Origin: Thermodesulfobacteriota bacterium
GTDB lineage: Bacteria; Desulfobacterota; GWC2-55-46
Direction of reading: 5' to 3'
Length of the DNA stretch: 64,000 nt
Assembly (NCBI GenBank): GCA_030583865.1
Contig: CP129479.1
Coordinates: forward strand, 1,946,819-2,010,818
Every line of letters begins with the position of its first letter. Position 1 is the first letter of the stretch. Position numbers and translations under genes: made by a program. The notes beneath the pieces are model-generated. The model had not been told where the DNA came from, searched no databases, and saw nothing but the letters and a program-made list of their open reading frames with translations. This document shows positions 36,855 through 51,326 of this stretch, piece after piece.

Positions 36855-36967
36855 AGCCCCCTCCACTTTATTCAAGTATAAACGGAATCTGCTAAAGAGC
36901 GAGCCGAGGCATCAGCCGAGGCAAACCCCTTGACAGCGGAAGCCCTCCATATTAAAGTACGCCCACA

Positions 36968-37200
36968 TATATCAGGTAATCCCCTTCGGGGATTAAGAGG
37001 GAATCCCGTGGCCGGTTTCTGAAACCGGGAATCGGGAGCGGTCCCGCCGCTGTGACCGGGGACGAAAGCCGACAATACCACTGGGAACCATCCTGGGAAG
37101 GTCGGGCGAGTAGGCTGATCCGGAAGCCAGAAGACCTGCCTGATGTGAATTGCCGAAGGCCTTCTCGCGGACTGGAAGGCCTCGCCGAAAACACAAATTA
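36968..37200 (+). promoter_or_regulatory. Cobalamin riboswitch
   Basis: The conserved elements appear in order: TTAAGAGGGAATCCCGTG, GGGAGCGGTCCCGCCGCTGT, a GGGGACGAAAGCCG core, CACTGGGAACCATCCTGGGA, GGTCGGGCGAGTAGGCTGA, and the B12 box region GAAGCCAGAAGACCTGCC (37123-37140). An intrinsic terminator follows, so cobalamin probably switches off transcription of the ThiC-like gene downstream. Confidence 0.95.
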
Positions 37201-45087: not shown

Positions 45088-45447
45088 CTAGTCCGCCTCC
45101 GGCCAGGCATAGAGGCGCATCCCGGTCTTCACAAGCTTCCTCATAAGGCTCGCGAACCCGGAGCCCTGCTCGGAAGCGCCGTCCGCCTTACGTTTTTCAG
45201 GTATGGGCTTTATAAACGAGCCGTCCTCGTACCCGGCCTTGCCGGCTTTACTCAGGTCCCTGCACGGGACCGGCGCCCTTCCCGAAGCGCCGGCGCAGTC
45301 GCCTGGGGTTCCATCCTTCGCGACGGCGCTACCCGCTGCCATCGCCATCGTCCCCTTCTTCGGCTCTATGACGATGACGGAGTCTATCAACTCGCACCCG
45401 GAGACCAGGAAAAAGAGTACGGGGATAGCGTATGCCAGGAGGCCCAT
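45088..45447 (-). CDS. Small predicted lipoprotein
   Basis: A 119-residue protein with a short hydrophobic leader ending in a lipobox (LFFLVSGC, cysteine about residue 18). The rest is low-complexity, rich in Lys, Gly and Ala, with no recognised fold. It is co-transcribed with mutM from the promoter at 45546-45573. Function unknown. Confidence 0.6.
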   Translation of the reverse strand: MGLLAYAIPVLFFLVSGCELIDSVIVIEPKKGTMAMAAGSAVAKDGTPGDCAGASGRAPVPCRDLSKAGKAGYEDGSFIKPIPEKRKADGASEQGSGFASLMRKLVKTGMRLYAWPEAD

Positions 45448-45545
45448 GTGCCCACTCCGGTCCGGTAAATTGGTTTCAATCTTTTCTTTGCAAGGGAGGC
45501 CTTGCCCGGGCAGGAAGGGCGCGGCTTCGGAAGACGTATTTTAAA

Positions 45546-45573
45546 AGTATACTCCCGGACAATGGCGAGTCAA
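45546..45573 (-). promoter_or_regulatory. Promoter of the lipoprotein-mutM operon
   Basis: On the minus strand TTGACT (45568-45573) and TATACT (45546-45551) are 16 bases apart, about 100 bases before the lipoprotein start. Confidence 0.7.
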
Positions 45574-45684
45574 ACGATGAGCCGTGAGCCCATGTGCGCA
45601 TATCCATCTATTCCCGCCCGACTTGACACCCCCCGATTTTGGGATACCATCAAAGTAAGGCATTGACGCAAGGGTTCGGGCGTC

Positions 45685-45712
45685 TTGACAAAGACAGGTT
45701 ATGGATTACGAT
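45685..45712 (+). promoter_or_regulatory. Candidate promoter of the CBS gene
   Basis: TTGACA (45685-45690) and TACGAT (45707-45712) have a 16-base spacer, about 45 bases before the start codon. Confidence 0.5.
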
Positions 45713-45758
45713 TTATACATGAGCCTGTCTCCCCATGAACAGGAAAGGGGTAAGGGAA

Positions 45759-46169
45759 ATGCAGCTAAGGCAGATAATGCAGAAAAAGGTCGTAACGGCC
45801 AGTCCTGACGCGAGCGTAAGGGAAGTCGCGAAGAAGATGAAGGACTACAGGATAGGGTATCTGCTTCTCACGAACGGAGAGTCGATCAAGGGTTGCGTGA
45901 CAGACCGCGACATAGTCGTGTGGCTGGCGGGAGGAAAGGATCCGGACGCGACGAAAATAAATTCGATAATGCGGTCGAACGTCATAACCTCGCCTCCGGA
46001 CACCGACGTCTTCGACGCCTCAAGGCTCATGGCGAGGAAGAAGATCCGGAGGCTGCCGATCGTGGAGGGCAATAAGCTCCTGGGCCTCGTCTCGGTTTCG
46101 GACCTCGCGTCGGTAATCGAGGAGGAAGTCGACAACTTCTTCCACGTGGAAGAGGCGTACCAGATTTAG
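45759..46169 (+). CDS. CBS-domain pair protein
   Basis: A 136-residue protein made of two CBS motifs (about 8-60 and 70-122), each ending in the typical GCVTDRDIV and GLVSVSDLASV segments. Such stand-alone Bateman modules bind adenosine nucleotides and regulate partners. ATG 45759 (MQLRQIMQKK) is preferred; the in-frame ATG 45735 lacks a ribosome site. No partner enzyme is adjacent. Confidence 0.88.
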   Translation: MQLRQIMQKKVVTASPDASVREVAKKMKDYRIGYLLLTNGESIKGCVTDRDIVVWLAGGKDPDATKINSIMRSNVITSPPDTDVFDASRLMARKKIRRLPIVEGNKLLGLVSVSDLASVIEEEVDNFFHVEEAYQI

Positions 46170-46197
46170 CAGGTACGAAAAATCGAAATCCGCTGGA

Positions 46198-46303
46198 AGC
46201 TGCCCAAAAAGCTCCAGATGCGAGGCGTCGAGAAGCTAGGAATGAGGCGTATTTTTTGTATACGCTGCAAGACAACGAAGCAGATGGGCTTTTTCAGCAG
46301 CCG
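46198..46303. repeat. Family 3 repeat, internally deleted copy
   Basis: It runs AGCTGCCCAAAAAGCTCCAG...ATGAGGCGTATTTTTTGTAT...GGGCTTTTTCAGCAGCC, lacking about 20-40 bases of the full copies. It lies right after the CBS gene. Confidence 0.8.
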
Positions 46304-46314
46304 ACTTGAAGGTT

Positions 46315-46517
46315 GCTTTCCCGGACCGGGATATCCGGCTGGTAAGAGGAGAGATAAGAAAGCCGTCTTCGGATGGTTGTCGAAACCTCCTCTAACCGGC
46401 TGGAAAAACCGGTCCGGGAAAGCAAGGGCTGTCTTCGCGGGCAGGAAACCCGATCGGCAAGAGAAGGATGTGGGGGCCGTCTTCGGATGGCTTAACTATC
46501 CATCTCTTACCGACCGG
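46315..46517. other. Unassigned tandem double-hairpin element (RNA or DNA)
   Basis: Element 1: perfect 15-base arms GCTTTCCCGGACCGG (46315-46329) and its complement (46409-46423) enclose a second 16-base pairing (46335-46350 with 46388-46403, two wobbles, one mismatch). Element 2: 46450-46469 pairs with 46498-46517. Both have the same apical CCGTCTTCGGATGG (UUCG-type loop), and a third CTGTC...GGCAG hairpin lies between them. A terminator follows at 46540. No known riboswitch or sRNA was recognised. Confidence 0.6.
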
Positions 46518-46539
46518 AGAGTACTGTCCGCGGAGACAA

Positions 46540-46574
46540 AAAGGCGGCAGGTAAGACCTGCCGCCTTTATTTTT
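46540..46574 (+). terminator. Bidirectional terminator
   Basis: A 13-base-pair perfect stem AAAGGCGGCAGGT/ACCTGCCGCCTTT with loop AAG, flanked by A-rich and T-rich tails, lies between convergent units. Confidence 0.9.
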
Positions 46575-46607
46575 GTCATCCTCCGGCCCGCCTCGCCAGG
46601 ACGGGGC

Positions 46608-47342
46608 TTATTCAGTGTCCCGAGCGCCCTCTTCCGTCGGCCCGGCCCCTGGGTCCGCCCGTTTAATCCGCGCCCTCGCTCGTTTCATCCTGTTACCCGT
46701 TCCGAATACTTCGCCTAGGGGCCTGGCAAGCCTTTTCCGTTCGTCCGGGTTCGCGTATCTGACATAAGCCATGCCCAGCGCCGCGACGACCGAGCCGCCC
46801 ATAAAGTCGCTTATGAGGTCCCACATCGTGTCGCCGAGCCCCTTCTGGGTGTTCTTACCGAAGAGGCTGTCGACCGTAAACTCCCCGATCTCCCACATGG
46901 CGCCCATGGCCATGGCGAACGTCAAGGTAAAGACCCCGATAAAAGGCAACGAGAGGCGCACTTTTCCGGTATAATTCAAAGTATATACGACGATGAAAGC
47001 CAGGAGGCCCACGACGCCGCTGCTGTATACGTGAAGGAGCTTGTCGTAAAGCCATACCTTCTCGTAGAAATCGAGCCATTCGCCCATGAACGTGTTCGCG
47101 AATATGGAGACGGTTATAAGCAGGTCCATCTCGAAAGGGAGCGTCACCTTGTAGTTCCTCTCCAGTAGGCTCGGTATAAGGGACACCGCTATCGAGAAGA
47201 ATATGAGTGCGATAAAGAGGTATTCTCCCTTTATGGCCGCGACCGGGAGAAGCAGCGCCATAAGGAGCTTCATAATCCATGAAAGTCCGGCTGTTATCGA
47301 GAGCGTGCGCCAGTTCTTAAGGATACTTGCGATGCCCGGCAT
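46608..47342 (-). CDS. DUF2238/YjdF-like membrane protein
   Basis: A 244-residue protein with about six membrane helices. The conserved polar signature YDKLLHVYSSG near 100, with AMGAMWEIGEFTVDSLFG and GDTMWDLISDFMGG near 150-180, matches DUF2238-type membrane proteins of unknown function. The last 35 residues are basic and hydrophilic. It is divergent from the exported-protein gene at 47426. Confidence 0.8.
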   Translation of the reverse strand: MPGIASILKNWRTLSITAGLSWIMKLLMALLLPVAAIKGEYLFIALIFFSIAVSLIPSLLERNYKVTLPFEMDLLITVSIFANTFMGEWLDFYEKVWLYDKLLHVYSSGVVGLLAFIVVYTLNYTGKVRLSLPFIGVFTLTFAMAMGAMWEIGEFTVDSLFGKNTQKGLGDTMWDLISDFMGGSVVAALGMAYVRYANPDERKRLARPLGEVFGTGNRMKRARARIKRADPGAGPTEEGARDTE

Positions 47343-50798: not shown

Positions 50799-50854
50799 GC
50801 GGATAAAGCTATCACAGTTCTTCTCAGGGGGTCAAGGGAAAGGGCCGGAAACCC

Positions 50855-50886
50855 GGGGGCTGGCGCTCCAATGCGCGCCAGCCCCC
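50855..50886 (-). terminator. GC-rich hairpin after the tandem paralogues
   Basis: A 12-base-pair perfect stem GGGGGCTGGCGC/GCGCCAGCCCCC lies eight bases past the stop of the 50895 gene. A T-run is lacking, so it may stabilise the 3' end rather than terminate alone. Confidence 0.55.
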
Positions 50887-50894
50887 GGCACCTG

Positions 50895-51326
50895 TCAGCC
50901 TATGCCATCGAGGCCGGCTGCGAAGGCCGTCTGCATCCCCTCCACGGTCGGGGCGCCTTCCGGGTGCCAGGCCACCTCGATCCTTTCCCATCTCGCCAGT
51001 TCCTCTTCAGGTATGGCGGCGCTGAAAACACCTTTCCCCTCGGAGTCGGTCCTGAAGCCGTGCTCCATCGGGCTTACCATCTCCGCCTCGCTCCTCTCTT
51101 CGCTCACGAGCCAGACTGTGTACACGGAGTCCGGCATGAGGTCATCGGCGCGAATCGTTATCTCCTTTTCGCCCTCGGCCGCGTCAGTAATCTCGACCTC
51201 GGCCCTTGAGTCCTCCCAGAGGAAGCTCTCCATCTCCATCGTTCCGGCATATGCTGAAGCCTGCGGGAGCGCCAATGCGACCGCAGCCGCGAGCGCCAAT
51301 CCCAAGGCTATTCCAAGCGCGTTCAT
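50895..51326 (-). CDS. Exported tandem paralogue A
   Basis: A 143-residue secreted protein with a signal peptide (IALGLALAAAVALALPQASA). The mature part shares with its two neighbours the pattern I-x-x-x-L-x-P-N/D-S-V-Y-x-x-W-L, then FRTDSEGKG and a WERIEVAWHPEG segment, suggesting an immunoglobulin-like or RskA-type beta-sandwich. Function unknown. It starts 11 bases after paralogue B, likely in one transcript. Confidence 0.65.
   Translation of the reverse strand: MNALGIALGLALAAAVALALPQASAYAGTMEMESFLWEDSRAEVEITDAAEGEKEITIRADDLMPDSVYTVWLVSEERSEAEMVSPMEHGFRTDSEGKGVFSAAIPEEELARWERIEVAWHPEGAPTVEGMQTAFAAGLDGIG

Follow-up and report, generated by a model that had tools for sequence, protein, structure and literature searches.

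Tandem rod-shaped hairpins form a conserved plus-strand RNA element behind a CBS-domain gene in one family of uncultured bacteria

The element was composed of two abutting rod-shaped hairpins of ~115 nt (U1 and U2) and a terminator, and was located 3′ of a gene for a protein with two CBS domains in a 64,000-nt stretch of Thermodesulfobacteriota DNA (the window). Comparison with relatives settled that the element is an RNA, the structure of which is kept by selection on the plus strand. It represents a conserved, strand-specific RNA element that is missing from Rfam 15 and is bound to one gene within a family of uncultured bacteria. The unit number varied from 1 to 4 across relatives, which offers a natural series to test repeated rods in a 3′ untranslated region (3′-UTR). 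The tentatively preferred reading takes it as a structured, lineage-specific RNA within the 3′-UTR of the CBS mRNA, built of whole-rod modules, that would act mainly in cis on transcript stability or processing.

Structure of the element and its locus

Rod U1 (46311–46425, plus strand) was defined by folds and covariation and scored 112.5 bits with model R1. In its folds, a 17-bp outer stem (46313–46329 paired with 46409–46425) led to a purine-rich inner stem, AGAGGAG/CUCCUCU, with a UUCG tip. An inner loop, identified by fold and comparison, placed AUAA (46354–46357) opposite GAAA (46382–46385) in a UAA/GAN-like arrangement. Rod U2 (46427–46540, plus strand; 103.1 bits with R1), defined in the same way, also carried a UUCG tip and had a 15-bp outer stem (46430–46444 paired with 46524–46538). 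Its outer internal loop was formed by GAAA (46445–46448) facing AGUA (46520–46523), and the AGUA strand was replaced by AUAA in several relatives. The AGUA strand presumably resembles a bulged-G (sarcin-ricin) loop. The apical sequence that an earlier sequence-only reading had found common to both rods, GCCGTCTTCGGATGG, was present exactly at 46362–46376 and 46476–46490.

That reading had divided the run into two long hairpins, a related smaller hairpin between them, and a terminator. The first long hairpin corresponded to U1, but the second (46450–46517) was merely the inner part of a full-length rod spanning 46430–46538. The supposed smaller hairpin was the 5′ arm of the U2 outer stem, which pairs with 46524–46538 in the minimum-energy fold. 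The folds supported two rods and a terminator instead of three hairpins. The terminator itself was found where it had been placed, as a terminator-like hairpin at 46540–46568 with a T tail to 46574, in a scan of the plus strand. Read on the other strand, the A run 5′ of this hairpin becomes a U run, and the transcript of the convergent gene described below may also end there.

The region 46300–46590 folded at −175.3 kcal/mol, compared with −104.0 ± 5.5 kcal/mol for 200 dinucleotide shuffles, none of which reached the native value (z −12.9). When both strands of the whole window were scanned in 116-nt segments (12778 folds), U1 came out as the strongest fold of all (−76.7 kcal/mol, z −5.2). The second strongest, at 50841–50956 on the minus strand (−69.2 kcal/mol), was a GC-rich palindrome, GGGGGCTGGCGC..GCGCCAGCCCCC.

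The host gene (45735–46169, plus strand) encoded a small protein of 144 residues with two CBS stretches (Pfam CBS, E 1.1e-29). Its true start may be an ATG located ~21–24 nt further in, where the relatives begin (MQLKQIMQKK). Two sigma-70-like sites upstream of the gene (45623–45650 and 45685–45712, plus strand), each a consensus match at 10 of 12 positions, are presumed to be the promoter for the CBS gene plus the rods. A consensus scan of 45400–46700 listed no further promoter-like site on the plus strand. The spacer between the CBS stop codon and U1, delimited by sequence comparison, was 141 nt (46170–46310). The corresponding spacers were 154 and 172 nt in loci L020 and L021 and 6 to ~50 nt in the other 11 of the 14 rod-bearing genomes, which leaves little space for a separate promoter. 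From the short gap and the position of the promoter-like sites, we infer that the rods are co-transcribed with the CBS gene as one transcript running to the terminator. A GCTGGAAGCTGCCCAAAAAGCTCCAG-like sequence in the spacer (46190–46300) occurred also in L020 and L021 and was missing elsewhere; it looks like a lineage-specific insertion.

The claim that no gene explains the element held with respect to coding but not to location, as the element flanks the CBS gene on its 3′ side. An open frame crossing the rods (46218–46718) is probably not a coding explanation, since the length differences between units came in steps not divisible by three and the pattern was that of base pairing.

The conserved neighbour on the other side (46608–47342, minus strand) encoded a convergent membrane protein with weak DUF2238 likeness (Pfam DUF2238, 20.6 bits; cut-off 26.4). 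Relatives of this protein were present in 21 of the 30 family genomes, and the rods were located between convergent genes wherever the neighbour was read. A defence role was rejected on the search made, in which no PADLOC model matched the CBS protein or two neighbours.

Distribution and RNA-level selection

Inspection of the sequence 3′ of the CBS gene in relatives yielded a total of 28 units in 14 genomes of one family, with 1–4 per locus, all on the same strand behind the CBS gene. Two units were present in each of the six genomes of the genus of the window and in G028, three in G025 (L023) and G007, and four in G019 (L024); G021 (L025), G026 (L026), G016 (L027), and G023 (L029) carried a single unit each. 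A DNA search detected the element in the five other genomes of the genus and partially in another genus. The units measured 97–127 nt as cut, and the U2-like units of L023 and L024 abutted without a gap. In L022 (5551–5589), L008 (1620–1651), L023 (5552–5578), and L024 (after 5547), a short near-perfect hairpin separated U1 from the following rod; the window lacked it. The tree of the 28 units was poorly resolved, with 8 of 25 inner branches starred. Bootstrap support for the U1/U2 split was 87%. L008_2 was placed among the U1 rows on a long branch. The records of L020, L025–L027, and L029 were labelled Deltaproteobacteria bacterium but Myxococcota in the tree, so that their phylum label is uncertain.

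The CBS gene (E 1e-20) was present in 15 of the 30 family genomes, and 14 of these 15 carried rods. In the exception, G017, the CBS frame ran into other sequence and the usual stop codon was absent; G017 was therefore taken as misjoined or deleted. The remaining 15 genomes had neither the CBS gene at this threshold nor a convincing rod. Two of them gave weak matches to model R2 (E 0.02–0.05) that were not rod-like. Weak R2 matches elsewhere in G000, G015, G026, and G011 (E 0.004–0.05) were read as TCCCC/GGGGA-type GC-rich or simple palindromes and rejected as rods. In seven CBS-lacking family genomes, no R1 match (E up to 10) was found within ~1.5 kb of the DUF2238-like locus. Beyond the family, R1 gave no match in the other genomes of a class search (63 in all) or in a phylum sample of 395 genomes. 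The stricter filters applied there already lost the known G007 copy, and this absence applies to R1-like rods only. Two CBS relatives outside the family had a plain terminator and no rod, which suggests that the rods were probably inserted between the stop codon and the terminator.

Selection at the RNA level, proposed earlier from wobble pairs and a mismatch in the stems, was borne out by the relatives, in which the anticipated covariation was present. In the 21-unit alignment A1, both-side changes were observed in 21 of 32 consensus pairs (92 cells), and 92.5% of all cells were paired. None of 500 shuffles matched any covariation measure. Although A1 was aligned by sequence (MAFFT), the structure was derived from A1 itself and its rows are related, so that the shuffle count is not a probability. 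Sliding the 3′ partners by 1–3 columns reduced pairing to 41–55%. The alignment and the covariation test covered 21 of the 28 units, omitting L025_1, L026_1, two units of G028, and three of G007; G007_3 was absent from both models, R1 and R2. Strand asymmetry was an independent sign of selection at the RNA level. In 27 of 28 units the plus strand gave the better fold, the mean advantage being 10.8 kcal/mol; it formed 142 G-U pairs and the reverse strand 76. A bias of this kind is not expected of a palindrome acting at the DNA level.

Internal loops and possible roles

Each module was a long, imperfect hairpin whose internal loops were A-rich and non-canonical, and an intrinsic terminator followed the rods in most cases. 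The sequence-only reading had laid weight on the identical UUCG tips, but these were local to close relatives. The tips varied between genera (UUCG, GAAA, GCAA, GAGA), with rods of other genera capped by GNRA or other loops, and the tip was not the conserved core. The U1 units of the genus and of G025 and G019 mostly had AUAA facing GAAA towards the tip. In several U2 units, GAAA faced an AUAA-like strand near the base, so that the motif was mirrored relative to U1. These loop sequences were well conserved within two genera only. According to PMC12550061, the UAA/GAN loop is a split GNRA-type motif making long-range A-minor contacts. The definition given there, UAA opposite GAN with a flanking Watson-Crick pair, was matched exactly by the sequence of U1 (AUAA-G / C-GAAA) and its kin, and U2 of the window had AGUA instead. 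Among loops of 2×2 or larger, 32 of 55 had a split-GNRA-like form (loose GN/RA), compared with a shuffled mean of 10.5. Natural control loops of the window had the GN/RA form in 112 of 746 cases overall and in 76 of 229 A-rich ones. With natural A-rich loops also rich in this form, the excess over controls is moderate. Nor are the units independent of one another.

In one model, the rods, amplified as whole units in the tail of the CBS mRNA, would make up a modular RNP RNA. Mirrored loops of the UAA/GAN type in adjacent rods would dock into one another's conserved purine-rich helices (AAGAG/CUCUU), and one to four rods, single ones as dimers, would pack side by side into a compact particle. 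This particle would bind a protein partner of its own, which might be the CBS protein responding to its adenine-nucleotide ligand. We regard this model as speculative and quite improbable. If the rods did dock via split-GNRA loops, they would constitute a natural modular RNA assembly within an mRNA tail.

For a cis role, the rods would have been amplified as whole units between the CBS stop codon and the terminator, and would provide a compact, exonuclease-resistant tail that sets how stable the CBS transcript is or how it is processed, the internal loops acting as sites for docking or protein binding. This role is the first choice because the rods were tied to the CBS gene and missing along with it. 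The linkage may instead stem from a syntenic block that was inherited vertically. The conserved loops and exact unit boundaries, for which a pure stabiliser has no obvious need, count against the cis-tail reading, as does the restriction of good loop conservation to two genera.

The main rival is a stable non-coding RNA acting in trans, which comes close behind and is possible, if doubtful. Released from the 3′-UTR by processing or made from a promoter of their own, the rods would serve as a protein scaffold or sponge or as a compact RNP, and more rods would mean a higher dose. Tandem amplification from one to four units with exact boundaries, the mirrored orientation of the AUAA/GAAA loop sequence in U1 and U2 units, and the over-representation of split-GNRA-like loops are consistent with such an RNA. 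Set against it are the rods never occurring apart from the CBS gene, the shrinkage of the loop excess against natural A-rich loops, and the lack of an identified protein partner. Hfq was encoded in none of the 30 family genomes (PF17209; 5 of 14 control genomes were positive), and an Hfq-dependent sRNA was accordingly rejected. As each genome has a single locus, a cis role is indistinguishable from a trans role.

An unlikely alternative is that the array is merely a large terminator and insulator between convergent genes, for which stability alone would matter. The convergent setting, the terminator at the end of the array, in the window as in most relatives, and the T-rich DNA after the single rods of L025 and L026 agree with this. 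Against it, the CBS gene of the two relatives outside the family has a short terminator alone behind it, the fold is strand-asymmetric in 27 of 28 units, and loop sequences are kept within two genera.

A CsrA-titrating sponge of the CsrB kind is very improbable. The csrA gene was present in all 14 rod genomes compared with 8 of the 16 others (22 of 30 in total; Fisher p 0.003, with kinship ignored and G017 counted among the 16), a co-occurrence across the family that possibly reflects kinship only. The sponge was rejected on motif counts despite this association: GGA occurred 104 times compared with 102.0 in shuffles, A-N-GGA was depleted (14 compared with 24.7), and only 18 of the 104 GGA motifs were mostly unpaired.

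Least probable of all is a mobile (REP- or MITE-like) or protein-bound palindrome at the DNA level: the units are long tandem palindromes and the DNA search detected the reverse strand as well, but the one-contig genome of the window (2.75 Mb) held a single locus (R1 at E below 0.1; the DNA search likewise), the position was conserved in 14 genomes, and the one-strand wobble bias fits RNA rather than DNA. A match to a transposon end, named beforehand as counter-evidence, was not found; plasmid and phage records gave no match, and a pattern scan of viral contigs gave 0 matches.

Comparison with known RNA systems

The element had been said to resemble no familiar riboswitch or sRNA family, and in Rfam 15 no family reached its gathering score at the window locus or at nine relative loci. 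The best sub-threshold match was mir-3160 (26.4; gathering score 80). The only Rfam matches in the whole window were a tRNA and a cobalamin riboswitch (36957–37157, plus strand; 115 bits, well over the gathering score), both away from the element. A narrow search of open-licence PMC full text found no description of the element, which argues only weakly that it is missing from the literature.

Four known systems share features with the rods. Type III toxin-antitoxin loci carry RNA arrays in which tandem structured-RNA repeats are accompanied by a terminator, as they are here; the rods differ in their length of ~115 nt and their place behind a CBS gene, with a convergent neighbour and no same-strand toxin gene next to them. 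CsrB and CsrC (RF00084 and kin) resemble the array in their tandem hairpins and short transcript, the latter predicted here, and csrA was present in the genome. In contrast to these RNAs, the rod loops showed no GGA enrichment, and the only Rfam overlap was a sub-threshold match of 17.1 bits on the terminator (gathering score 61). REP, RIP, and BIME palindromes stabilise upstream mRNA and, like the rods, are palindromic hairpins in a 3′ flank with the potential to block 3′–5′ decay. The rods are several times longer than these palindromes. They were confined to one gene instead of dispersed, and showed covariation and conserved internal loops.

Structured 3′-UTRs and 3′-UTR-derived sRNAs associated with ProQ or Hfq are a known bacterial class. 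As in the rods, stable hairpins are located behind a stop codon with an intrinsic terminator at the end. The rods differ in consisting of one to four repeats of ~115 nt and in belonging to a family in which Hfq was missing from 30 of 30 genomes. Read as a structured 3′-UTR RNA, the element is unusual because its rods are amplified into an array.
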